Source: Polytrichum commune
Taxonomy: Eukaryota > Streptophyta > Polytrichopsida > Polytrichales > Polytrichaceae
Direction of reading: 5' to 3'
Length of the DNA stretch: 64,000 bases
Assembly (NCBI GenBank): GCA_950295325.1
Contig: OX485804.1
Span: forward strand, 37,944,001-38,008,000
In this document: positions 2,754-64,000 of the stretch, piece after piece
Numbering within the stretch: position 1 is the stretch's first letter
Layout of the letters: each line of letters begins with the position of its first letter
The notes under the pieces: generated by a model
Database searches by the model: none
The model's input: only the letters and a program-made list of their open reading frames with translations
Told to the model about the DNA's origin: nothing
Translations under genes and position numbers: made by a program

Positions 2754-3340
2754 GATCACACTGGTCAATTCAGACACCATCCCTTGGCATCTCCAGCTGT
2801 AATAGTGTGAAAAGCGGTGGGCCAACATCTATTTCTCAACATAATCTCCAACAATTTCGCAGTTAGAACCGGATGAAAATTTTGGTGTGGTCGGATTCAC
2901 ACCAGCCAGTTTACACATCATTTGTCGGCGTCTCCGGCTGCAATAGTGTGAAAAGTGGTGGGCCAACATCTATTTCTCAACAATTTCATGTATGAAACCG
3001 GACATACAAATTTGGTGTGATCGGGGTATGAGGGGTTGATCACACTAGCCACTTCTGACACCATCTGTCGGCATCCCGGGTTGTAAGAGTGCGAAAAGTG
3101 GTGGGCCAACATCTATTTCTCGATATAATCCCCAACAATTTCACGGCTGGCACTGGATGGAAAGTTTGGTGTGACCGAGACATTAGGGGTTGATCACGCC
3201 GGCCAATTTAGACACCCTCCGTCGGCATCTCTAGTTGTAATAATGTGAAAAGTTATGGACCAACACCTATTTCTCAACATAATCCCCAGCAACCTCACGG
3301 CGACACGGGACGGAAAGTTTGGTGTGATTGGGGCATGCAT
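2754..3340. repeat. Four-copy diverged tandem repeat, about 140-154 bp unit
   Basis: Units begin near 2754, 2894, 3038 and 3192 with variants of GATCACACTGGCCA. Each contains a conserved block TGTGAAAAGTGGTGGGCCAA followed by CATCTATTTCTCAACA, and ends with TTTGGTGTGATCGG. Spacing drifts through small indels. There is no open frame across all copies, so this looks like a small satellite or an intra-element repeat. Confidence 0.85.
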
Positions 3341-44263: not shown

Positions 44264-47200
44264 ATGAAGGAAGGGAAGGATGGGAGCGGTGGTCCAAGGC
44301 GGCCGCCATCTGCCGCCATAGCCGACCCCAGGTTTGCCAAGGTGCATACGGACCCTCGGTTTATGCGAATGCCAAAAAATAAGAGCAAAGTCGCAATTGA
44401 TTCGAGGTTTTCGCATATGTTCTCCGATAAGAATTTCTCTGATCCGCTCGGGGTGGACAAGCGAGGCAAAGCGAAGAAGAAGAAGGAGAAGCACATGTTG
44501 GAGAGGTATTACAAGGTGGGGGAGGATAATGAAGAAGAACCGGGGAACGATGACGAGACGAAGTTAGAGGCAAAATTGAATGTGAAAGGCAAGAAAGCTG
44601 GTGAAAAGGTTAGCATTAGAGAAACATCACCAAAAGAATCACAGAAAGTAGAGGCCAAGAAGCAGAAGAAGGAGAAGCCAATTGTTACGGCACAGAAAGT
44701 AGAGGCTAAGAAGCAGAAGAAGGAGAAGCCAATTGTTACGGCACAGAGAGTAGAGGCTAAGAAGCAGAAGGAGAAGCCAATTGTTGCGGCACAGAAAGAC
44801 TCATCAAGTGATGAGGATGATGATGATGATGGTGAAGGAGACATTGACCTAAGTAGTGATGACAGTGAAGAAGAGATCATCGAAAGACAGACAGGTGCAA
44901 AAGCTAAGAAACATACACTTCAACACGAGAGTGAGTCAGGTGAAGAAGAGGATGGAGGAATTTTGAATTCGAGTTCCGAAAGCGACGATGATGATGATGA
45001 TGTTGCATCCACCTCCTCGTCATCGAGTTCTTCGTCCGAGAGTGAAGCAGAGAGTGATGTGGAGGAGGCAGCGGAGGAGGCAGAGAAGGTGCCAACAACA
45101 ACTGATGGCACGCGGAGGTTTGCCATGATGAATATGGACTGGGAGCACATCAAAGCTGTGGACTTGTTCATGCTAATGCGATCATTTTTGCCCAAGGGTG
45201 GGAGGGTTGATTCTGTTACAGTGTATCCTTCCGAGTTTGGAATCGAGCAAATGAAAACAGAGGAGGTATGGTTTGAAGAATGTTTGTGAAATTCCCATCC
45301 TCTGGGGTTAAGGGTGAGTGATGAAGCTGAAGGGGTTTAGGGTTTAAGGTTTTAAACAATAGCTCGGGTCTTCAGAGTGATGAATTGAAGGGGTTTAGGG
45401 TTTAAGTTGTGAGCAACTTGTTATTGTCTTGGGTTCTTTGTTGGAGGAGTTCAGGTTTAAGGATTAGGTTGGAATTTTGATTTTCGCTGCTATAACTTCC
45501 TGTAGAATATGAATATACCACCAACGATTTCCACAAATTAGATGTAGTTTCAGTCTTCGTTTTGCTTGCTACATATTGCACCAATCTCCATGAAGCAAAA
45601 TTTAGTACCGCAGGATGGTGGAAAGTCCCTCTGGAGTTTGAAGTTGTTATTTTCAAGGAGGGTTGTTCTTGGTGGGTATATAATTGTCAACTTGCAATGA
45701 AACTGTTTAAACCCAAGCATACATTACGTAGCTGCAGTTACTACCCTCAACTAAGACATCTTCTCTCAAGTGCTGAAGTATATCTTTGGGTTCTAGGGTT
45801 GGGGTTTTAGGGTTCTGTTGTGTGTACCAACGGTCTGAGAGCACGGGATCTTTTCAGTAGTGGTTTGTGCAATGGATACTCAATTCCGTGTAATCTGAGG
45901 TCCTTTAACTAGTGGAATGTTCGAGCAACTACATGCTGCTTGAATGGTAGTCTGCTCCACCCAACTTTTGTGAATGGTGTGCACTGGCCATGTTCGAAGT
46001 TGTAGATATCATTGATATAGACTTCAAAGTCTTCACCAAGTGCTTGGTCACACCATTTTGTGTTTTGGTAATGTTGGTATATTTCCTTTCTGTGATAACT
46101 CAGAAGCAGGAAGATACAATGAGTAATTTGTGGCACATCTTTTTGATGTTAGGTGCATGGTCCTAAGGCAATCTATGACAATGATGATGAAGAAGAGGAA
46201 GAGAACAAGGAGATAGACATGGAGAAGCTAAGGGCTTATGAGAAGAACAAGCTCAAGTACTACTATGCAGTTGTGGAGTGCGACTCAAAATCAACTGCTG
46301 ATCACTTGTACAAAGAGTGTGATGGAATGGAATTTGAGAGGACTTCAAATACTCTTGATTTACGGTTCATTCCTGATGATATGAAATTTACGAGAGACCC
46401 TAGGGATGTCGCCAAGGACGCTCCTGATGAATACAAGGCTCCATTGTTTGAGACACGTGCGCTGCAACATAGTAATGTGAAGCTGACATGGGATGATGAT
46501 GAACCAACACGAGTCAAAGCTCTGCGAAGGAAGTTCAATTCAGACCAGTTGAACGAAATGGATTTCAAGTAAGTGCATGCTTTATTTGTTGCCGCTGAAG
46601 CAGGAACCCTCTATTTTTCACACTCATCCCAGCCTTTGATCTGCTGTTTTGAGTAATGATAAGTTCAAAAACTGAATAGAAAGACATATGCTCCTTTTAT
46701 CAAGTCTTAATACATGGTTACTGCTCATTTTCAACGACTTATGTGTTTGTGTGTGTGTTTCTTTGTGTGTGCTTGTTTTTTATGGCAAGTACATGCACAT
46801 ATTCTAGGGTTATGGTTGTTAATCTGTACATCTAGATGTAGACGTTTAAATTGTGGATGTCCTACAGGTTTGATGGGCTTCTTGTTTCTGTTGCTCTGGG
46901 TCCAAAAAATTGCAGTTAATGTCAACAACATGTGGCTACATTGTTCTTATGCTGTTTTTGTGAAGCTTTACTGAGAGTGTTCATTATCTGGCATTTTTCT
47001 TTCCAGAACTTATCTTGGCTCAGAATCTTCAGAGGAAGAAGATGTGGAGGATGGGGAGGGTAGTGAGGAAGAGGGCGATGCTGCTGGTGACCTTACATCT
47101 GGAGGGGCTAAGGCGAAAAATGCAAGGGACAAGTATCGGTCCTTATTGTTGGGAGACTCCACAGAAGAGGCAACAGATGGTAGAAAGAAGGGTAAAGGGG

Positions 47201-48084
47201 ATGTAGACATGGAAGTAACATTTCACACAGGTTTGAGTGAGTTAAGTGATAAACTACTAAAGAAACAAGAGGAGAAGAAACGAGGAGATGAGGGAGTATG
47301 GGAGGCGTACTTACGGAAAAAGAAGGAAAAGAAGGCCCAGAAGAAAAGGAACAAGAATGCGAAAAACTCAGATGACGATTACTCGGAAGATGAGATTGAG
47401 AGTCCACGTGCTGGTCAGGAAGAAGCTGATCCTTTCTTCACCCATGATGACAATGGGTTTGATGACCCATTTTTTGCTGATGATGGAGAAGCCCCAAAGG
47501 AGTTGAAGAAGGCACCAAAGAGTGCAAAATCACAACACCCAGATGACGAAGAGAGGGCAAAGAAGAGAGAAGAGAAGGAGCTAAAGAAGAAGGAAGAAGA
47601 GAGGAGTAAAGCAGAACTGGAGCTTCTTCTTATGGATGATGAAGGTGTGCAGGGTGCAGCACGCGGGTTCAATCTTAAGAGTAAGAAGGACAAGAAAAAG
47701 AAAGAGAAGGGTAAGAAGAAAAAAGGTAAAAGTGAGGAGGGTGACGCTGAGGAAGATGATAAGCTGGCCACTGCCAATCTTGATGATCCTCGTTTCGCAT
47801 CTCTCTTTACAAGCCATCATTATGCAATTGATCCCACAAATCCCCAGTTCCGGAAATCTGCCGCACAGCTTAAAATTCTGGCAGAGTCTCAAAAAAGGAG
47901 GTCACAAAAATCTCAAGATGTTGGTGATGCAAGGCCAGAAAATCTGAAATCTGACGATGCTGATGCTGATGCATCTGGCACACCTGACCGAAAAAGGAAG
48001 GCGGAGCTCTCTTCTATGGTGCGGTCACTTAAGAGAAAAGTTGGTAGTAGGCCTGGTACAAATAACAAGGGTAAGAAATCATGA
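44264..48084 (+). CDS. ESF1: ESF1 homolog, pre-rRNA processing protein
   Basis: Three exons: 44264-45265, 46153-46568 and 47007-48084, giving 831 aa. Introns are GT-AG (GTATGG..TTAG; GTAAGT..CCAG). ESF1 is a nucleolar factor needed for 18S rRNA maturation in the small-subunit processome. The N terminus has the conserved DPRF..DPRF..IDSRFSHMFSD block (residues 21-60). Three tandem QKVEAKKQKKEKPIVTA repeats (about 127-176) and long acidic serine-rich runs follow. A degenerate RRM-like core spans about 283-407 (RFAMMNMDW ... VTVYPSEFGIEQM ... YYYAVVECDS), divided by intron 1 at the conserved EEVHGPKAI. QHSNVKLTWDDDEPTR is at about 439-454. The C-terminal NUC153 motif DDPRFASLFTSHHYAIDPTN starts at about 732. 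A lysine-rich tail suits nucleolar targeting. The start is the only ATG consistent with the family N terminus. The gene appears intact. Confidence 0.94.
45337..45403. promoter_or_regulatory. Paired telo-box motifs in ESF1 intron 1
   Basis: TTAGGGTTT occurs at 45337-45345 and 45395-45403 within a short duplicated segment (GTGATGAA..TGAAGGGGTTTAGG, then GTTTAAG). The complement AAACCCTAA is the plant telo-box, known to mark promoters or first introns of ribosomal-protein and ribosome-biogenesis genes. The regulatory role here is inferred. Confidence 0.45.
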
Positions 48085-48858
48085 TAGTGCAGTTGGTGAT
48101 TCTTCGGCATTAGTTCTTTCTGTTACTGAGTTTAGGTATGTCCATCAATTTTGAAAATTGTCTTAGAAAATTGAGCCAGGTTGACAAGCCTCCAGGGTAA
48201 CCCAAGTGCATTTGTTCTTTTGAGATTAAGTTATGCACTCCTGCTGGCCTGGTGTGGATGGGTAGGTCTTGATTCTCGTCTAGTACCAGGTCCACCATTT
48301 ACTTGGCACAGAGAATATCTTGAATATGAACACATAGGTTTTCCTGAGGTGGAAGACCTTCAGTAGTAGCCCATTCATTCAGGTGTAGTTGGTAACAGCT
48401 CAATTTGCACCCTTGCTCTCCTGCACTAGAAGACCAAATGTCTATCTTTGCAGTGGAGGCTATTGGTTACCTGGTGTTCCGCAATTGAACCTGGAGGCCT
48501 AAGTCCCACTCTGTTATTAGAGTTTTGGGCCTTTACGGACTTTGCTTGTATTTGCTTCACAGTTTGGCTGTTGTCCCCTTTGTTTTCTATCGAGTCTATT
48601 ACTCGATGTCCTTTTGAAAGCTTCCTTATTTCCAGATGCTAGCGTGATTTCATAATTTTGGCATTGACTCCAATGTGAAGAAGAAAAGTCTGATCTTCTG
48701 ATATTGACATGTTATTAGTATCGGAGATGATGATTTGTGGACCAAGCTTGGATGAACACCAATCGTTTCCTTTTTCGCCCAAAGGCACTGCCGCCAGGTT
48801 AAGTGTCTTGTTTACTCGTAATCCCTCACCATGGTACATATGTCTGCTCAAACAGCAC

Positions 48859-49005
48859 GAAGAGTTATTCATCAAATTTGTGGTCATTCATATGACTTAA
48901 CAAGCATGAAGGGTTATGAATCAAATTTGTGGTCATTCATATGACTTAACAAGCATGAAGGGTTATGAATCAAATTTGTGGTCATTCATATGACTTGATA
49001 AGCAC
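48859..49005. repeat. 49-bp minisatellite, three copies
   Basis: Units start at 48859, 48908 and 48957 (GAAGGGTTATGAATCAAATT, then TGTGGTCATTCATATGACTT). Copies 2 and 3 are almost identical, implying recent expansion. It lies about 800 bp beyond the ESF1 stop; 48085-48858 in between holds 3' UTR-like sequence with no further gene. Confidence 0.9.
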
Positions 49006-52412: not shown

Positions 52413-53766
52413 AGAACTGGAGTTTTCAAGATGTTTAGTTTCACAGCACTGGAAGCTTAATGTTTCCATATCCAGAGCTAATGATTTGAGGATGTGCACA
52501 TTCCATAAGTAACTGAATCTGCAAGAGTTTCAAGGTCATGGACCTTCTTTATGACTATGTTGAGATAATGAAAGGGTGTGTGTGAGTTCTATGTATGTGC
52601 TTGGAAATCTCTCACGAGAGTAGTGTCCTTGTTGCTTTCATTTGGTCAAACTGGCTTCTTTTCTGAGGTCTATGCAGAGTCTCCTGCATGCATTGTTGTC
52701 TCGGATATAATCAATTCTGCTACCCACCAACCTGGTTCTCTATGTCTCTTGAATTTATGTTGTCAGCAACAGTGATTCAAGTGCACAGCAATTGAAGTAG
52801 ATATGAATTTTTTCCACAGCAATTCAATTATACAGGGTCGGAGGAGTGTTTGTTGGAGTACTATTGTTATGGATTTTCGTTCACTGCTTTTGCTTGACTT
52901 CATGGGTGTTCACCAATCGAGCGTTTTGCAGAAGAGCATAGGGACTTTCAGGGGTTGATTTGCTTACATGTCATCTGCAATCTCCACCTCCTCATGCCGG
53001 GCAGATGAGTCTGCCTATGTCATTCACAACCTCTAAAGCCTCTTCATCTTGCCTTGCCTGCAATATAGATGCAGATCCTGGAAGAATTCCAACTGTAGTC
53101 TGCATCCAGGATAACCACTTTCCTGGAAAGCTTAACATTTTCTGAGCACCTTGACTTGTGATGAGGTCAACCTCCTTTTAATCAGGCCTCTACTTGGGTT
53201 ATTGTTCTCCCATCTTTGAGAACCATGTCATGTATTAGAGCACATGACATGCTGAGTATCTGATCAATATTGATTGTAGGTGTGTTTTATCGGAGGTGTG
53301 TTCTCAAGACCATTCAGCACCACTCTTTAAGGAAGGACATTGTTGTTTGCTGTGAGAGTTTGGTTTGTTGATGGCAGTAATACGTTGTGTACATAATGTT
53401 GGTATTGTCTTGGTCCTCTCGCTACAAATTCATTCGCTAATAGCTTGTAAATGACTGGCTCTGGAAATGGCATCAGAGGCCTCAAATTATGGTAACCGCA
53501 TCTATCAGGGACACTAGCAAATTTGGGTACAATTACACTTGATTTAGTTTATGTTCGGATTAGCAAGTTGGATTAGGCTTTCGAAGTGGATTCGAAAGTT
53601 ATGCAATTTGAATAATGAACTTGTGTCTCTGTCTTACAGAATCTGAAAGTAAAAAGTTCATAGCATTTGTCAGATACAGAAAGGGCTGGGGCGAACTAAC
53701 ATGTACACTCGTACCTTACACTTCCATCCATGCCTCGTCATCCAAGCCCCCCTCATCCAAAATAGG
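52413..53766. other. RPS28 3' flank, no further gene recognised
   Basis: Presumably includes the 3' UTR. Small frames (52578-52775, 52960-53145) lack motifs. Base composition is less AT-rich than in the first 43 kb. Confidence 0.4.
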
Positions 53767-53940
53767 TTAACCACTTGAAGTGGTTAATTGTGGTCAGGGT
53801 GGGCCCTTCTGACACCTGCTCCGCCCGCTCTTGCTCCTCCCGCTCTTGCTCCGCCCGCTCCTGCTCGCTTCTCCTCGCTCTCACCAAGGTATTCTCTCCA
53901 CTGCTTGCTTCTGCTGTGTCATGGGTTTAGGGTTTAGGAA
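53767..53940. promoter_or_regulatory. Promoter-like segment: palindrome, CT-rich repeat, telo-box
   Basis: A near-perfect 21-nt palindrome lies at 53767-53787 (TTAACCACTT, G, AAGTGGTTAA). It is followed by a pyrimidine-rich repeat of GCTCCGCCCGCTCTT type (53817-53880), then GGTTTAGGGTTTAGG near 53929. This resembles a plant housekeeping-gene 5' region with a CT-rich leader. The frame behind it (53831-54040, 69 codons) could be a first exon, but no intact downstream gene was found. Confidence 0.35.
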
Positions 53941-54049
53941 GGCTGGGGTTTGGCAACCGTCGTCACCTTCCTCCTCCTCCTCGGTGCTCCTTGGATTGCA
54001 GTTTTGTAAACAGGAGGAACCAGATGATATTAAAGATTAAGCAGAGCAT

Positions 54050-54900
54050 TTGGGGCCACAGTTTACAAATGGCATAATCAACCCTGATATTGAGCAAATA
54101 CGTAATCTCCACAAGCCAGTTAATAATCTGATAGCCTTTTATCCTGATTCACAGCACCGGAACCATCCTTTGACTTGCATTGTACAAGCTTCCATAGTGG
54201 TGCAGTCGAGTTATGATGCGAATTTGGAAATTTTCAATGTAACAGGACATGAGGATGGCCTGTTAAGGTATGCTTCATGGTTTAGGGTCTAGAGCAAACA
54301 CCTCTGAAGATTTGTAGCTTTATCTCTCTCATTTGTTCATTGCAAAGTACTCATTATGTAGTAAACCCTGAGAACTGTACTGCCAAGATTTATCAGTAAG
54401 GATGGTGATAAAGGTCTTATGATTGGAGGAACTCTTGGGCATGCCTTCACTAAAGTACACATAGACTTCACTTTAAAATTAGCATGACAACGCTGTGAAA
54501 GTGGCCAGAACACACGACAAGATGACCATTATACTGAATCAAGTTGAGCAAATTCATGGTAAGAGTATTTCTTGGTAAGCGCATTGTTGCAGGAAAAAAC
54601 CGTGAGGAACACTTTCGTGAACACATTATGACCAAAGAGGAGTTCAGCTGTTTGATGCTGGTATCCTATTGACTGTTGAAACGTCTTGATCGATTGATGT
54701 ACATGTGCAAATCCATCCACAAAAATTGGAATAAACAAAAATTATCTCTCTTGCGGAGGGCAGTCAATCGTGTAACCGCACGTTACTCAATCTCCCGATC
54801 ACCGCGATTTCAAAGGCGTTCTGCAATTCATACTATACACCCGGTTGATAGTGCAGAATCATATTCAGGGAGGGAGGAAAAGGATAGTGCCGAATTATGA
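54050..54900 (+). pseudogene. Decayed gene-like segment, unidentified
   Basis: Frames at 54050-54292 (INPDIEQIRNLHKPVNNL, then NLEIFNVTGHEDGLLRYASW) and 54676-54900 (RLDRLMYMCKSIHKNWNK) read like protein but are short, frameshifted relative to each other and lack start context. The NLEIFNVTGHEDG part is loosely reminiscent of a WD-repeat blade; I do not press this. Probably a broken gene downstream of the promoter-like segment at 53.8 kb. Confidence 0.3.
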
Positions 54901-55020
54901 AGAACCATGTATCAAGTGGGATGCTTCTTCTGCCTCCTGATGATAACTTTTGGACCAGGGTCCCGAACATGGATGTTAGGAAAGGGTTCAGGGCAGTCAA
55001 TGTGTGCGCGACCCCTTTAT

Positions 55021-55075
55021 GAATCTGTGTCCTCTTTATGAAGTCCCAAGTTCTCTGATCATACAAGCTTGTAAC
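55021..55075. repeat. 55-bp direct repeat, copy 1
   Basis: GAATCTGTGTCCTCTTTATG, then AAGTCCCAAGTTCTCTGATC, then ATACAAGCTTGTAAC; it recurs at 55845-55900 with a few changes. Copy 1 directly abuts the mitochondrial-carrier fragment. Confidence 0.85.
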
Positions 55076-55359
55076 TTTCTGGGCAGTGCTATGGTGGCAG
55101 CCAAAAATGTCATTGCAAATGATGGTTTTGGTGGGCTCTACAAGGTCATTTTTTTTGTACAATAGTGTCTTAAACATGTTTGACAGATTCCTTCTATGAT
55201 GTTTTCTTTTGTTGGGTTCTGTTGAAACTCGATATTGCTTTGTGCAATTATCTCAGATTGACTGAAAGTTATTAAGGGATTCTATTGTGAATTGCAGGGA
55301 TTGTCTGCAGGGTTGTTAAGACAAGCTACTTACACCACAACCCGTCTTGGAACATTCAG
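55076..55359 (+). pseudogene. Mitochondrial 2-oxoglutarate/malate carrier, two-exon fragment
   Basis: Exon a (about 55080-55144) reads LGSAMVAAKNVIANDGFGGL-YK. Exon b (55298-55359) reads GLSAGLLRQATYTTTRLGTF followed by a split R codon. They are joined by a GT-AG intron (GTCATT..TTGCAG), and exon b ends at a GT donor. YKGLSAGLLRQATYTT.RLG is diagnostic of the oxoglutarate/dicarboxylate carrier (SLC25A11 and plant DTC), inner-membrane exchangers of about 300 residues. The preceding PxDxxKxRxQ signature and everything downstream are missing, so only about 42 residues survive. The frame and splice sites are clean, which points to a young duplication or capture. Confidence 0.85.
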
Positions 55360-55544
55360 GTCAGCTACTTATACTCTTTCATGAGCAAATTTTTCAGTAG
55401 CAAGGGCATTACTTTGCCCACTTAAGAGTCATTTTCTAGGATTTTCTGATTTCTGCAAGCTCTGAAATTCTTCACAAACATTAAATGTAACTACATGTGT
55501 AAATCAACATTACCATATCCTTCACCATAGGCTTCACGAAGCAA

Positions 55545-55640
55545 GGTACATAGATGGGTCTCATATGGTTACTTTTTCTGACTAGCCCACTTCTCCTAGG
55601 ATATGAACCATGCAATTCCCACAAGATGGTTAGTTTTGGA
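55545..55640. repeat. Dispersed repeat R1, copy D (partial)
   Basis: AGATGGGTCTCATATGGTTA, CTAGCCCACTTCTCCTAGGA, TATG.A.CATG and AAGATGGTTAG align with 40463-40535. Confidence 0.6.
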
Positions 55641-55844
55641 TGTTGGGGAGAGTGCACAGCTGGGGAGAGTGCACCACTAACCTCTGATGTGTTGGGCATC
55701 AGGGAAGGTAATCACCACTAATTTAGTTCAATTAGGGTTCTAAACTTCTAACCCTCATTACTGTAGGAATGATCATGTGGAGAACGAAGCTAGATGGAAG
55801 GAAATTCTTTAGCCACTTGTTTGCTTGTTGAAAGCCCGAGGACT

Positions 55845-55900
55845 GAAATCTGTGTCCTCTTTATGAAGTCCCAATTTTTCTGATCATACAAGCTTGTAAC
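55845..55900. repeat. 55-bp direct repeat, copy 2
   Basis: Same orientation as 55021-55075, 824 bp downstream. On the minus strand both copies read (T)SLYDQ.xWDFIKRTQI in frame, so the unit may derive from a coding sequence. Confidence 0.85.
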
Positions 55901-56210
55901 GCATAATGGTAGCATATTTTGAGTGGTACTAGCAGTTAAGGTTGTCTCACCTGAGGTGCAAGTTTGCGTAGAGCACAAGATAGAGAAGTAGTTTAAGATA
56001 TATAATCGAGAGTGAGAGAGCATCTGTCAGTACTTGTAACTTAGTCTTTGGCCACCTTTACACTAGAGAGGTTGAAAGCTTGAAGAGATGAGCCTTCTTT
56101 CACTCTCAAAGTGGGTTGAGCGAATTTGATTGTGTGAGACATGTGCTTGCTTTTTTTTTATCAATGAGATTAGCTTGAACTAATTTGTTTTATATTTGAA
56201 ATGTCTAGTC

Positions 56211-57415
56211 ATGGCGAAGGAGACATGTCAAAATGGAGATTTGGTACTAACGGAGGCAACCTTGGAGGAGGCAACTTTAGAAGAGTCATCTTTCGAAGAG
56301 ATTACTTTGGAGGAGGCCGTTGAGAAAGAAGATTGGATGCAAGTTGTTAATGATGAAGCGCCTTTCTATTGTCTTGTAAGGGCAAGAGGAAAGAAGTGCC
56401 CATATGGTCCGTTCAAGCACCGATTTCATTTGAATGATCACATGAGGAAAGCCCATCTCATGATACTTTCTAAAATCAAGCCGGGGCCGAAAGTTGCAAC
56501 AACGAGCAAGAACGGTGCAAAAAAAATGTCAAGGGTGGTCAATGCAAAGGAGATGAATTTCAAAGTTATGTCAAATTCTCTAAAGCGGGCGAGAAAAGAA
56601 TTTTGGAAAAAATCCAAGCAATGGGAGGCAAGAGCGAAGGCAATGTGGGAGAAATTGGAAGCAAAAAACATTGACAACAACCACATTGGTTCTTGTCCTA
56701 CACTCTTAACTCTTATTCAAAAGTCTCAAAAGCTTGAAGAGCTTTTGGGAATCACGTCTTTGGGTAAAGGTGTGATTGATGTGACCAAATTTGAGAAATT
56801 ACACAATTCTCAAGTTTTGGCTACTTTAGTTCGTACTTGTTCTTCTACTAACAAGAGAGTTACCAAGGCAATGAGGACTTCATTTCTACCGAAGGATTGG
56901 GAGCAAAATGAAAATGCAAGAAAAGAATTTGTGACTCCAATTTTGATATGGCATCGTGCTAAATTTTCCTCAAACATGTAAGTATCTCTATATTTATTTG
57001 AGTTATTTTTTTTATTCATAATTATCACTTCGTAACGTTTTGTTTCTTATTGGTCTTCAATGTTTACATTTCAATTTGTTTTTTGTTTTTTGTATCTAAT
57101 GTTTGAATTTTTTTTGCTAATAGGGCTATGTTAGGAAAAGAGAAGTGGATTTCTCAATACATAAATCTTCACAAGAAGATTTATGAAATGGAGAATATCA
57201 CTACGATGGAAAGGATAGAGGTAGCGTGTGAGACTTACAAATCCAATTCGCTAAATAATATTGAAGAGGAGGAGATTGTAGAAGAAAAAGTGGAAGAAGA
57301 AGAAGTGGAAGACAAAGAAGTGGAAGACGAAGAAGTGGAAGACGAAGAAAAAGAAAAAGAAGAACGAGAGGAGAATGATGAAGACAATGAAGATGAAGAA
57401 AATGACAATGAATAA
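56211..57415 (+). CDS. Zinc-finger-like acidic protein of unknown function
   Basis: Two exons, 56211-56977 and 57124-57415, joined by a 146-bp GTAAGT..AATAG intron that restores frame (352 aa). The N terminus has four (x)TLEE/SFEE-type pentapeptides (about 15-35). A single atypical C2H2 module follows, with C54, C63, H77 and H82 (C-x8-C-x13-H-x4-H; KKCPYGPFKHRFHLNDHMRK). A basic helical middle (about 85-160) resembles a DNA-binding or trihelix-like region, but I cannot assign a family. The last about 50 residues are almost entirely Glu, Asp and Lys in EVEDEE repeats. It is convergent with the transposase gene and lies just outside that element's left repeats, so it may be a domesticated or element-related DNA-binding protein, or an ordinary host gene. 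ATG chosen as the first in frame. Confidence 0.7.
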
Positions 57416-57643
57416 TGATGTAGAGATATTCATAGGAATCCAAATGTGTGTAAGTTCTTCATAATCACATTTTTTTGAGTGATTATGAAAGAGTTTTTAT
57501 ACTCTTTGTCAATATGAGGATTTAGAATTTAGCATTCTTCCATATATTACCTTTCATATGTAATTTTTTTTTTCAATCAATGAATTGTTTTTGTAATGTA
57601 TACTTTCATATAAACTTGTTTAACTAAACATTTTAAATTTTTT

Positions 57644-58195
57644 GCAATACTCGTCGTGTATCAAATAGTGATACAATTTCAAATTGTTTTCGATTTATAA
57701 TGAGTCTTGCTTATAGTTTTCAACCCTAAACCCAATATGCAATACCCATCGTAAATAAAACAGTGATACAATTCCGAAAAAATCCGTTTGGTGATAGGCG
57801 TTGCCTCTACTTTTGAAAAATAAGTCAAATAAGCAATACCCATCGCGAACAAAACAGTGATAGAATTCCTAAAAAAATCCCGGTTGATGATGGGTATTGC
57901 CTTTATTTTTGAAAAATAAGTCAAAGATACAATACCCATCGCGAACAAAACAGTGATAGAATTCCTAAAAAATCCGGTTGATGATGGGTATTGCATTTAT
58001 TTTTGAAAAGTAAGACAAAGATGCAATACCCATCGCGAACAAAACAGTGATAGAATTCCTAAAAAATCCGGTTGATGATGGGTATTGCATTTATTTTTGA
58101 AAAGTAAGACAAACATGCAATATCCTTTACGAACAAGACAGTGATATAATTTTATTTCATTTCCTAGTTTATGATGGGTATTGCTTAAATCAAAG
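57644..58195. repeat. Left subterminal tandem array, six 94-96 bp units
   Basis: Units start at 57644, 57739, 57833, 57929, 58023 and 58117. The consensus opens GCAATACCCATCGCGAACAA, then AACAGTGATAGAATTCC, and each complete unit also ends in GATGGGTATTGC, the inverse of its own start; each unit is therefore an imperfect dyad. Outer units are the most diverged; 57929 and 58023 are nearly identical, suggesting recent amplification. Confidence 0.9.
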
Positions 58196-58229
58196 TTTGT
58201 TATGCATTTCATTGATAATATGTGACACT

Positions 58230-58262
58230 ATTAGGCATGTGACACTAAATACCATAAATGGT
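58230..58262. repeat. CACTA-MITE-like end, unpaired
   Basis: ATGTGACACTAAATACCATA, then AATGGTGTA, resembles the right end of the MITEs at 19191 and 49220 (GACACTAAATATCATATTTA). No inverted partner was found nearby. Confidence 0.35.
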
Positions 58263-58815
58263 GTATTCTTCTTAGTGCAACAAAAACTAGTACATCTATC
58301 TTAAGCTTAATTAAGGGCCACGACCAATATCTTTTTATATAGTTCCATTGATTGAATTACAAATGGCAATTTTGCTTTGCTCCACACTAAGTCTCCAAAA
58401 GTAAGATTGATTGTGTCAAAGAACAAAATGACAAGGACCATCATCTTTAACATTATATCATGTAACAAAGACTATCTTAACAAAATGACAAGTACCATCA
58501 TCTTTACATTATATCATGTAGTATGATATTTTTTAAAGCGATGTGGATTATTCTTTGTCATAGCTCTGCAACAAGGAAATCATTTTTTCTTACAACCCTT
58601 GGTTACTATCAATGAAAGGCCCTTATTTGAATATAATGGATATGGAGCAAGAATAGATGGAAAAAATATCCATAAAATACAAAATGTAAGAAGGAACAAG
58701 AAGGATAAGCAAAGAATATTAAACTAAAAGGAGAAGGGCATGCCCATAGTGAACCAAAATAAGCTAAAAATTTATATCAATGTTGATTCACATTTTGTCA
58801 TAGAACAAAAACATC

Positions 58816-61347
58816 CTATACATCTAAAGAACTACGGTTTCTCTTCCTTTGAGAAGACATCGCGAGCATTGCTTGTTCACGAAAATTTTTTTTCCGTACA
58901 ATGGAATTTCCTAAACCATCGTCCACTACCTGAAAGACCGATTGAGGGTGTAAATTGTCAGCTTCAATTTGTCCCCGAATTCGCTTAAGATCTGTAACAG
59001 TCTTGGTCATCATTGCTTGCAAGTGTTGTACAAGTAGAATACCACCTCCTTCGGCTTCTTCTCTAGCATCCTCTTGTAATTTTTGAATAGCCAAAAGACA
59101 TCCTTCAATGGATGGTTGAGTTTGTCTTAAAGGTTCCATAGGAGTACAATGTGTATCTCCACCAATATTTGTGATATCTTCTATATCATCTTCTTTGTCT
59201 TCCATAAAATCATCACTGTTGTCTATGTTATCTTGACAATCACGTATATGACCGTTTTCAAATGGACCTATTGGTATATTCAATTCAAACATAGTTCCAA
59301 GTCCACCTCGAAGGGATCCATAATAAGTACCAAGAAATTCTAACATAATACCCCACGGAATATCAGTGGATGCCTTAATGACGGCAAGTTGGTGTTTACA
59401 CATATTCCCTCTAATACACCACTCACAAGAGCACGAAGCATACGAGGTGTAGGGTTCAACAATATCGTACCAACGACCTGGAGCGGTTTGTGATTGTACC
59501 TGCCATCCACCCAAAATTGTTTCATGGCGACGGATGTCCTCCAACGGAATGGTCTTTGCTTTAATAATGCCACTAGCTACGATCTTCTCTACCCGCTTGT
59601 TGAGAACAAACCCATTCAATTTCCTCCCGTGATTGTACATGTAGTGTGTAACTACAGGAGTAGTCAAACGCCACACCAAAAAATCCATTCGACGACCTCG
59701 AAGTTGATGGTTGTCAATCTTCATCCAACGTTTCAGAGCTGCATGGTAAGACTCAATACTTGCTTGTGTATCTTGGTTTGAATGCGGATTCCGACGGTGG
59801 CCCACAAGATACATATCTACAAAATATAAATTATAAAAAGACATGAATTAGGAAAGATTATCAAATATTATAATAATATTTAAATGAAATAATATTTTGA
59901 TAAAGAATATGATAGAATGCTATAAAGTACATCATAAAATGAACAAAAAATTAAAATAGAGTAGCAATAAATACTTACTTTGATGGTCGTAGTGTACATT
60001 GATAAACTGTTCCATTTTCTCCACATATAGAAAGTTGAATAAACCTTCCCTAATTGTGCGAGCACGCTTCAAAAAATCTTCTTCGCTCTCTTTGTACTCA
60101 ATAGGAAGGTACATGAAAGAATGCAGTTGTTTGTAAACAAGGTCCCTCAAAGTACCCAAATTAGGTACTTTTGTCCAAATATGGTTTTTCCAATTCCTTA
60201 AAACATGAAAAGAACATAAGTAGATGGGAACCTCGTCTTCAGGCCACGCTCGCTTAATTGCATTCCTTTGGTAGTCTGCATCATCAACAATGAAGCATGA
60301 GGGAAGAAAATCCTCCTTATGTTGTTGGAGGTGCCTTCGTAGTGGCTCCAACCACATGACTAGATCTTCTTCTGTCATTCGGCTTGTGAGAACCCAAGCC
60401 ACGGGAATACCATTCCTCCAGTCATCAAATACTAACAATGAAAATAATGGATACTTCGATACATTGGTCCCAAAAGTTGCGTCCATTGCAATGGCACCAT
60501 TATGTCCATACCTGAGCATGATCTCTTTTTGCCATGGTGTTTGTATACCTAAAATGAAAGGCAAATCTATGACATCATCTTTTTCGTGCCAAATGAAAAC
60601 GTCATCTGGGTGCTCTAAAGCCCACATCTTCACACTATCAAAGTCATTATGATGGCGGCGCCATACGCCCATCTTCAATCTACTCTCATAGTAAGCAATA
60701 TCCTTAAGCTGAACAAAGTCATCACGCACGTCTGGGCATTTCATCTTCCTCCGTTTAATCCAATTCTGTCTGTGCTCTTCGTAAACTTGTTTAGCAGTGA
60801 ACCCCTTACCCAATTGTGTTTTCACCCATGTCTTCAATTCTTTTGACATCCGGGGTTGGTAAGCCGACTCCCTCCCTATTGAGAGCTTGTCCTCCAATCC
60901 ATGGGCAGGTGATCCATCTTCCCTTGTATGGTCAACATGGTAGTAGGCAACTTCAACTATATCTGGAAACAAAAGAAGTTGTTTGATGGAAAACTTAGCA
61001 ATGCATCCACGTTTTTTTGAGTGAGGGTGTTGAGGATCTCCCGTGTAATCTTTCGGTCCAAATGCACATTGATAGTGAACATGCTCAATGTATGAATCAA
61101 TTTGAGGTCTTCCCACTGGTACTCCACGAACCCTGGCAGCAACAATCCATTCAACAGTAGAATCATCTACACATGTCTGGCCAGCTATGAAGTCTTCAAT
61201 TCTATCCAAAGGAAGATATGCCGCCATGATGGTTAATGTCTTGCCAAATCCTTTCCTTGTCTTTGCTGTCCATTGAATATCTTGAAAAGATATTGGCCCT
61301 AGTTTGGGTTGTTGTGCAGTGATAGAAGGTTTCGGCTTCCTTGGCAT
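58816..61347 (-). CDS. MULE transposase with SWIM zinc finger
   Basis: Minus strand, exon 1 61347-59979 and exon 2 59816-58816, intron GTAAGT..TTTGTAG; 789 aa with no internal stop. A Zn module C94, C115, H137, H140 (YYHVDH) matches the WRKY/GCM1-like N-terminal fold of MULE transposases and should bind element ends. The MULE catalytic domain spans about 284-480: D289 in AIAMDATFGT, D355/D356 in CFIVDDADYQ, and E478 in ASIESYHAALKRWM just after the splice junction, the expected DDE triad; the C-x2-H motif is at LCSFHVLRNW (C378, H381). The SWIM finger is at 585-598 (CSC...CKH). The C terminus has an acidic linker and a predicted coiled-coil helix. Start chosen at MPRKPK, the first ATG after an AG; an upstream exon remains possible. 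It appears complete and potentially active. Confidence 0.88.
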
Positions 61348-61527
61348 GTTGGCCCCTACATACAATAAAATAATTACGTAAGCCTAAACCCATTACGCAT
61401 GAATATACAAATAAAGATATATCTTGTGTAAGTAAAGAATGAAAATCCCGCAAAATAATAAAATGGCAAGTTCAAGACCCATCCCTACGTAATTTTGAAT
61501 TCATAATGGATTGAATTGTATCAAGTG

Positions 61528-61985
61528 GGAATTGTATCACTGTTTGGTATGCGATGGGTATTGTATATTTGATTTATTTTCTCAAATTAGATTCAATACC
61601 CATCACGCACCGAAATGATACATCATAAATTTTGGTTGGTGCAATATCCATCACGAACCAGGGAAGATTTGGAATTGTATCACTGTCAAACCAAAGAAAA
61701 AAATGGAATTGTATCACTGTTTGGTATGTGATGGGTATTGTATATTTGATTTATTTTCTCAAATTAGATTCAATACCCATCACGCACCGAAATGATACAT
61801 CATGAATTTTGGTTGGTGCAATATCCATCACGAACCAGGGAAGAATTGGAATTGTATCACTGTTAAACCAAGGAAAAAATGGAATTGTATCACTGTTTGG
61901 TTTGCGATGGGTATTGCTATCTGACTTATTTTCTCGAATTAGTTGCAATACCCATCATGCACCCACAAATACATCACAAACTACA
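61528..61985. repeat. Right subterminal tandem array, about 2.6 units of 176 bp
   Basis: Units start at 61528, 61705 and 61881 with GGAATTGTATCACTGTTTGG, then (T)ATGCGATGGGTATTG, the inverse complement of the left array core. Each unit also carries CAATACCCATCACGCACCGA, then AATGATACATCA, and CAATATCCATCACGAACCAG. The first two units are about 95 percent identical by eye. Confidence 0.9.
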
Positions 61986-62041
61986 TGTTAATACAAATGA
62001 AGAAATAATTAGAATTTCAAAGTTGTAATTAGTGAAGCATA

Positions 62042-62177
62042 CCTTGTGAAAAGCTTGAATGAAGCTACAATTGACAATCCCATTTGCAATTGAAATGTAG
62101 AGCTTCTCATTCTTATATGTACCCCTAAACTCTAAGGATTTAGTATCTAGGATCCCCACACTATAAAAGATGAGCAC
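62042..62177 (-). other. Possible upstream exon, minus strand
   Basis: A minus frame reads VGILDTKSLEFRGTYKNEKL, then YISIANGIVNCSFIQAFHK, immediately followed by a GTATGC donor-like sequence. An AG acceptor (TGTATGTAG) precedes the transposase ATG at 61347. If spliced, the right repeat array would sit in an intron. Alternatively it is an unrelated relic outside the element. Confidence 0.25.
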
Positions 62178-64000
62178 ATTAACATATCTTCAATTAGAGG
62201 CATGGACACCACCCATTTTGAAATTCCAAACCCTAATCCATTTAAGTTTTTTTCAATATAGACTAATTTTAGTTGTCATGTGGCATTCCTTCCTACTTTT
62301 AAGCTATAATAATAAAAGTCGGCATCATGGCAAGTGGAGCCAAAAAGATATGCTCCAATATAGTTATTTTAACACATGCCAAAAAAAGCTAGAGTGTTTT
62401 GTCTACTCCAACTCTTAACCATGGTTAAGTCCACTTGGGTTGGGAAGTGGATGAGAATTGGATGGCACCATCCACTGCAATCATCCGATAAGGTACCAGT
62501 GTACTTGTCGGTTCGCCCTCCCCGAAAGAAAGGGGCTTCCGTGTTTCCAAGGTACAACATTATTATTCCCCAGATCACACGAAGAACGTTCATAAGTTCA
62601 TAGATTCAGGCTGATTTGAGGGTTTTGACGCTCATTCTTACAGCCACCTGTGGGTGAAGACCGTCCCCGAAACAGGCCAGGGCTGGACACCGCAACATTA
62701 GCTGGATGCTTATCTGCACACAGGAGGGAAAGAAAATCTACCTTCACACAAGTGTGAAACAGAAAGCGGTTTCACTGATATGCATGTGCATGTTGAATTA
62801 CTACAAGCTCAACCATAGTTCTTGAATTTTGGAGCAAATGCTTGAGATATGGTAGGTTCACAAAGGGCACTGAAATTGCCATGCATTCATGCAGATGGAT
62901 CAAAGGTGACCACATACCCTGAACACACCTAAGTTGTAGTTTCTCGAGCAATGCTCTGCCCACCTTCAATGGTTACAAGTGAGGACTCTCGAGCAACACC
63001 CACAAATCACTGACCTGTAAATCATTTTCCTAACTGAATCCTGACATTATTACACAGCGAGAGATATTGTCCAAGCTCGCAAATGTGGCAAAATGGAGCA
63101 TCAAAAGCATGGGTGTAGGTCCATAGGAAGAGGCCACTGTTGTAACTAAACCCCAAAAAATTCTCAACCTCCACCACATCTGCTCTTTGAATGATTGATG
63201 GATCGACTGACAATGCCCTGTGCTTGGGCGGGCCATGGAACAATTGGTATGCAACAAACCTAGTAGGTAGGAGGGGAAGGGCTAGTTGTGCTAGCCTCTA
63301 TATTCATGCCCCGCCTTTTGCATGGGGTAATGTGCTTACTAAGATTCTGCCTAACACCTCATGATTGTGAGAATATGGGACCGCAAGTTACATATCCCAT
63401 GCTTGTTTCTAATACCCTCTGTATACCTGGTTCATTGAAGTGTAAAATTGGGTATCCATTTAAGTAGATCTGTAGCTCTTCAAGGAATAAAAACATCAAA
63501 GTGGATGTGAGGACCTCCCTTGACACATGGTCCACCGTTCACTAGAACCCATAAGTCAAATTTTGAGAGATGGTGCAATTATGCTTCTCGAGGTTGCAAT
63601 CATTGTGGATGCATAACAATATGCAAATGACAATTTTAATTTCCAAATGTTGACAACTTTAAGGAATTTCTACTTTCGTTAGTAGCAAACATGCCTCCAA
63701 AAGATACGATCCCAAACAACATGTATGTCAAAATGTTGTTTTGACAACGCATATTATTTGGGAAGCCACGTTTGTGACTTGTGATTGCATGGACTCAAAT
63801 GAACACATAAATCACAAATTATATTATTAGGAAGCTTATCATATGAGTAAATTCTTAGATATTCAAAGACAACCGAAAACTAAGTATTGAATCATTGTTA
63901 ATTGGGTGAATCCGGGACAATTGGGTGGACCATGAGAGGCTGACTATTGGACACAATTTGCTTGGGAAAGAGATAATGAATTCTGTAGACAATTTGTTGG
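62178..64000. other. Intergenic DNA, no gene recognised
   Basis: Overlapping short frames (60-82 codons) on both strands, none with motifs. No terminal repeats were recognised; a feature cut by the window end cannot be excluded. Confidence 0.4.

Follow-up and report, generated by a model that had tools for sequence, protein, structure and literature searches.

Polytrichum commune carries an apparently autonomous Mutator-like element (MULE) of 8.84 kb with two convergent genes, one for a transposase and one (ORF-A) that, to judge from its sequence, probably encodes a DNA-binding protein, together with two internal arrays of a family-specific motif. The chances appear to us about even that these arrays are binding sites for a protein encoded by the element itself, ORF-A being the likeliest candidate, by which the element would control the expression or silencing of its own genes. 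The element lies in OX485804.1 (C2), 37944001-38008000, a 64-kb stretch of the 408-Mb genome, here called the window, whose own positions are used below. Taken together, the recognition of a second gene and of the true ends, and the presence of arrays in relatives, make it probable that the arrays, first read as ends, are internal regulatory sites.

Extent of the element and target duplications

The following features were delimited in the window:

53684..62523, whole element, 8,840 bp, defined by the shared stopping points of other copies and by terminal inverted repeats
53684..53718, + strand, left terminal inverted repeat, 35 bp, present at the left ends of other copies
53994..56183, no strand assigned, interior stretch with pieces matching other loci (DNA matches)
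56211..56977, + strand, ORF-A exon 1, open frame with predicted donor; C2H2-like finger and AT-hook-like KPGPK; conserved in relatives
57124..57415, + strand, ORF-A exon 2, acidic C-terminus; predicted acceptor, frame runs to the stop
57643..58183, + strand, left array of six units at intervals of 94-96 bp, flanked by the 3' ends of both genes
58816..59816, - strand, transposase exon 2, with E478 and a weak SWIM match
59979..61347, - strand, transposase exon 1, with the MULE domain, D289 and D355
61512..61963, - strand, right array, 177-bp units, about 2.5 units, upstream of the transposase gene
62489..62523, - strand, right terminal inverted repeat, 35 bp, present at the right ends of other copies

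The first-pass annotation had drawn the borders at 57644-61985 and had regarded the arrays as the terminal architecture of the element. A genome search for other full copies, which it had suggested (query 57600-62100), yielded one further copy of 99% identity, on C6, and numerous diverged ones, the copy counts being lower bounds from the best candidates scored. Because the homology of other copies continues past the arrays to 53684 and 62523, where ordinary 35-bp inverted repeats are found, the arrays are internal and are ruled out as element ends; the multi-copy element that had been presumed exists, but with other borders. When the flanks were searched, 15 matches from elsewhere stopped exactly at 62523 and 5 more at most 4 bases away, and on the left side 5 of 22 matches started exactly at 53684, with 13 more at most 6 bases away. 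The two terminal inverted repeats are imperfect (28/35 identical). The distance to the left end is about 4.0-4.5 kb for the left array, and that to the right end about 0.6-1.0 kb for the right array.

Target duplications, judged by eye from the flanks, were recognised in four of the eight copies of the window element's family (family A) that have both ends; they measure 9-10 bp, three being perfect and one 8/9. Those at C6:23.1 Mb and C1:44.44 Mb are clear and 10 bp long, that at C3:56.9 Mb is a perfect 9 bp, and that at C3:34.9 Mb is a 9-bp duplication with one mismatch. No target duplication was seen in the flanks of the copies at C6:24.7 Mb and C4:27.8 Mb, whose ends are 45 and 37 kb apart, nor in those of the copy at C4:51.1 Mb, in which two right ends are present. 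For the window copy the duplication is doubtful (7/9), so that its description as 'intact' holds for the predicted frames of the two genes, both of them open, but less well for the insertion site. A 9-bp duplication also flanks a family-B copy (C1:72.16 Mb). In three loci with a right end only (L048-L050), a left end was not detected over the 2.3-3 kb taken, so they carry no information about derivatives lacking arrays. A MULE domain with DDE residues, terminal inverted repeats and target duplications within the 8-11-bp range (4/8 family-A copies) are thus combined in this element, as in MULEs.

The transposase and ORF-A

The exons 61347-59979 and 59816-58816, joined on the minus strand, give a predicted transposase of 789 aa, in agreement with the first reading of the sequence, and the protein contains the MULE domain PF10551 (Pfam, E 6.6e-13). 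Residue conservation was assessed in 28 aligned transposase rows, with a tree built from copies of the P. commune genome only, and it corroborates the DDE triad that had been proposed: D289 is conserved in 21 of the 24 rows having a letter there, D355 in 24/25 and E478 in 25/27. Two further motifs named at that stage are retained with qualifications, since C378-x2-H381 is conserved in many rows but not in all 28, and the SWIM match, although present, scores 14.3 bits, under the Pfam cut-off of 19.6 bits.

ORF-A, convergent to the transposase gene, consists of two predicted exons and has a predicted length of 352 aa. In families A, B, C and D it displays a C..C..H..H pattern and, after it, KPGPK, GRPK or GRPR; by visual inspection we take the former for a C2H2 finger and the latter for an AT-hook. 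Pfam returned sub-threshold C2H2 matches for the ORF-A of families C and D and no C2H2 match for that of families A and B; the AlphaFold model is poor (mean pLDDT 47.8), with strands and then a helix drawn at the finger. In family A, dN/dS ranged from 0.19 to 0.53 in 18/18 comparisons of ORF-A (at least 100 aligned codons; near-identical C6 copy excluded), and for the transposase from 0.18 to 0.47 in 14 comparisons with dS >0.5 and from 0.55 to 0.72 in 6 close comparisons, values that mix past selection with decay, because stops occur in 18/18 ORF-A copies and in all but one of the transposase copies.

Two inverted arrays share a composite motif

The left and right arrays have cores in common in opposite orientation, as had been noticed at the outset, one example being a core of 38 nt at 92%. 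Allowing at most one mismatch, CAATACCCATC occurs 19 times in the window, where 1.4 sites are expected and 0/100 shuffles reach 19; eight sites are located in the left array, eight in the right array, one beside the latter at 61473, and two elsewhere. Both arrays contain CAATACCCATC together with CAGTGATA in a fixed arrangement, again in opposite orientation. The composite CAATACCCATC-N10-CAGTGATA was found 35 times in 408 Mb, its reversed control not once, and the spacer is 10 bp in 35/35 sites even though 8-12 bp were permitted. All 35 sites fall within 12 listed family-A copies: the composite motif is family-specific, its sites are largely related by descent, and the idea that the arrays might be genome-wide satellites is ruled out for this motif.

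Adjacent units are nearly identical, as originally described (left units 57928 and 58022, 97.9%; two 177-bp right units, 96%, ungapped). This had been interpreted as a sign of recent activity; however, it reflects homogenisation inside the array and not recent transposition, for which the 99%-identical C6 copy with its 10-bp target duplication is better evidence.

Motifs and arrays in families B, C and D

The transposases of the relatives are 35-47% identical to that of the window and their ORF-A proteins 14-28%. In 10 of the 11 loci taken, ORF-A and the transposase gene are convergent and within a few kb of each other; at L043 the ORF-A match lies about 12 kb from the transposase. Each family has its own motif: CAATACCCATC in A, CACGTATAGC in B, GCAATACCTGCC in C and ATACCTTATCC in D. 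Compared with the motif of A, that of C shares the core GCAATACC, that of D mostly ATACC, and that of B is unrelated.

In family C (L036), the space between the genes contains GCAATACCTGCC in 3 x 61 bp, and the region upstream of the transposase has four sites, complete or partial. Family D (L040-L042) carries ATACCTTATCC, which in L040 and L041 is organised in 177-bp units as inverted pairs between ORF-A and the transposase, with two further sites upstream of the transposase, and in L042 is scattered without a tandem array; the D inverted pair occurs in 18 places at 9 loci, every one beside a D ORF-A match. In family B (L033-L035, L037, L038), CACGTATAGC forms units of 62-63 bp upstream of ORF-A (3-5 sites each). 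At four of these five loci two extra sites, 63 bp apart and in the same reading direction as the transposase, are present upstream of the transposase, a region in which L037 lacks the pair; single CACGTATAGC sites occur elsewhere in the B loci too. L039 carries a single upstream site plus a few others, and L043 has an upstream pair, no array being found there. All four families, including four of the five B loci, have sites about 30-630 bp upstream of the transposase start.

Core counts were compared with 200 dinucleotide shuffles in the non-coding DNA adjoining the transposase, over fixed stretches of 1.8 kb and 1.3 kb. In L036, GCAATACC occurs 6 times, in both stretches, against 0.10 expected (0/200 shuffles reach 6), and CAATACC occurs 4, 3 and 4 times in L040, L041 and L042 against 0.43, 0.38 and 0.46 expected (reached by 1, 2 and 0 of 200 shuffles), comparisons that are weakened by the fact that copies within one tandem array are not independent. 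Most sites of family D read GATACC, CAATACC being a minority, and GCAATACC is absent from these stretches in L040-L042. In the seven B/B' loci the counts equal or come close to expectation, with GCAATACC once each in L033 and L034. CAGTGATA, the second half-motif of family A, is absent from the non-coding stretches of 11/11 B, C and D loci.

Possible function of the arrays

If the arrays are binding sites, ORF-A, made by the element, would recognise the motif sites of its own family; it would occupy sites both ahead of the transposase gene and in the region that separates the two genes, and the bound protein would switch on the genes of the element or keep them unsilenced, in a VANC-like manner. 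We infer both the identity of the binder and its activating or anti-silencing effect. The composite shared by both arrays with its constant 10-bp spacer, the motifs private to each family, the recurrence of the core in C beyond shuffle expectation, the upstream sites in A-D and, for ORF-A, the finger and hook pattern and the dN/dS values argue for binding sites. Against them stand the sub-threshold or missing Pfam matches and the poor model of ORF-A, the conservation of the whole unit in family A, the absence of CAGTGATA from B, C and D and the minority share of CAATACC in D, the variable position of the array among families (upstream of ORF-A in B), the lack of upstream sites in L037 and the lack of an array in L043. 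Since the arrays are internal, an action of the VANC type fits better than one of the TNPA type. More tentatively, this MULE lineage could possess a sequence-specific anti-silencing or activation system of its own, comprising a C2H2/AT-hook protein and a motif amplified in internal arrays, with protein and motif having diverged in each family, so that several private systems would exist in one genome.

Alternatively, the arrays might be cis accessory sites for transposition, bound by the transposase or by ORF-A in a TNPA-like fashion and unconnected with expression control, which we consider possible but rather doubtful. A 1.9-kb derivative (L027/L047, C3:56897093-56898994) retains both ends as well as an array of the right type, is flanked by a perfect 9-bp target duplication and matches neither ORF-A nor the transposase gene; the retention of an array in such a gene-less copy is compatible with a role in transposition as well, but this is a single case and the deletion may post-date the insertion. 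The right end of the window element, GTACCTTATC, resembles the family D motif ATACCTTATC, and the array motif might accordingly be an internal copy of the terminal site, but the likeness spans two families, the end belonging to one and the motif to the other. Arrays beside both ends, as in En/Spm, were not found in the window element, in which about 4 kb separate the left end from the left array.

The arrays are unlikely to be neutral minisatellites in non-coding DNA under little constraint. Their unit number does vary (four right units in the C6 copy, three in the window), tandem copies are not mutually independent, and a profile from four window units, applied to 14 loci, revealed that most of the 94-bp unit, beyond the motif, is conserved in family A, for which reason conservation within this family cannot discriminate a constraint on the motif and was dropped as proof of it; the motif logo is biased too, its sites having been chosen by the motif. 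Neutral repeats, however, do not readily account for a motif common to two separate places with fixed spacing, for the recurrence of arrays and upstream sites in B, C and D, or for the core shared by C beyond shuffle expectation. Least probable is that a host transcription factor binds the arrays: each of the four families does have sites upstream of its transposase gene, but the motifs differ between related families, and the A composite and the D inverted pair, the two searched genome-wide, are confined to their own families where host targets would be expected.

Comparison with known systems

MuDR is a MULE with a second gene, mudrB, opposite to the transposase. The same two-gene plan, with a second gene convergent to the transposase, is seen in the window and in the relatives, mudrB and ORF-A being compared by description. 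In the Abermu MULEs, as portrayed in the relevant passages, the transposase is accompanied by an opposite-direction ORFR that evolves fast and whose function is not known (PMC9168764). Abermu thus resembles the present element in its second gene, ORFR and ORF-A again being compared by description, but its terminal repeats (138-145 bp in Hvu_Abermu) are longer than the 35 bp found here, and the words 'tandem' and 'subterminal' are absent from the text of the paper (PMC9168764). Mutyl, a fungal MULE, has a second ORF, MutB, said to bind DNA, and is similar to our element in having a putative DNA-binding second ORF but differs in being fungal; text and table of the paper disagree on the ORF orientation, and the passages on Mutyl do not mention motif arrays (PMC6446971).

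The VANC proteins, as presented in parts of two papers, act on motif arrays of Arabidopsis VANDALs and remove silent marks (PMC5735166, PMC10398659). VANDALs are likewise MULEs with extra genes, one element protein of which reads motifs, and families A, B, C and D each have a family-specific motif in non-coding tandem repeats. In contrast to VANDALs, the second gene is here C2H2/AT-hook-like and the terminal repeats are 35 bp long; ORF-A is set apart from VANC by description, and binding and demethylation belong to the VANC system, the present element being known from its sequence. In En/Spm (CACTA), according to the part of the source concerned with TNPA, this protein reads subterminal repeats and is required for transposition (PMC2613891). 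An element-encoded DNA-binding protein that reads repeated motifs diverging between families is a point of likeness, but En/Spm belongs to another superfamily, and its repeats are subterminal and act in excision (PMC2613891).

Opposite-direction second genes in MULEs and VANC arrays are therefore known already. What is apparently new is the combination of a second gene of the finger/hook type with internal motif arrays private to the family, as no plant MULE in which a C2H2/AT-hook second gene accompanies internal motif arrays was recognised among the top matches in the openly licensed literature. VANC arrays are a demonstrated example of how a plant transposon relieves its own silencing by means of a private sequence code; if our proposal is true, four related families with a separate finger-type protein and motif apiece would represent a second such system, perhaps a more readable one since finger residues and motif bases are directly comparable. 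Protein-motif co-evolution would then be testable in vitro, and sequence-specific epigenome tools might be derived from it.

Module exchange, probable DNA capture and other observations

In L011 and L014, ORF-A is near that of the window (dS 0.18 and 0.26) and the transposase distant (0.68 and 0.70), whereas in L013 and L009 ORF-A is distant (dS 0.78 and 0.89) and the transposase near (0.08 and 0.11), which suggests that lineages have exchanged gene modules. To the extent that the alignments reveal it, the arrays seem to track their neighbouring gene: the left array of L011 is nearer to its counterpart in the window than its right array is, and the left arrays of L009 and L013 resemble the right array of the window more than the left one.

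The left interior, 53994..56183, is probably captured DNA, as if from host pieces, to judge from its matches: 53994-55015 is 97% identical to C3:16.96 Mb, 55081-55633 is 92% identical to C1:60.18 Mb, and 55658-56098 (of a piece extending to 56183) is 93% identical to C2:47.95 Mb, this third piece being present also in the C1:44.44 Mb copy. In the near-identical C6 copy (L001/L002, C6:23101760-23111302), ORF-A exon 1 is open and the transposase is interrupted by one TGA. Near its left end this copy contains a tandem duplication of about 440 bp, matching 53684-54406 and then again from 53967.

Elsewhere in the window, a short stretch beyond the right end of the element (63286-63459) is similar at 72-79% to many genomic sites, and two tandem repeats lie outside the element (3011-3327, 154 bp x 2.1; 48854-49004, 49 bp x 3.1). 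On the + strand, open frames at 44264-45289 and 47044-48084, both rich in lysine and acidic residues, resemble exons of a host gene for a nucleolar protein.
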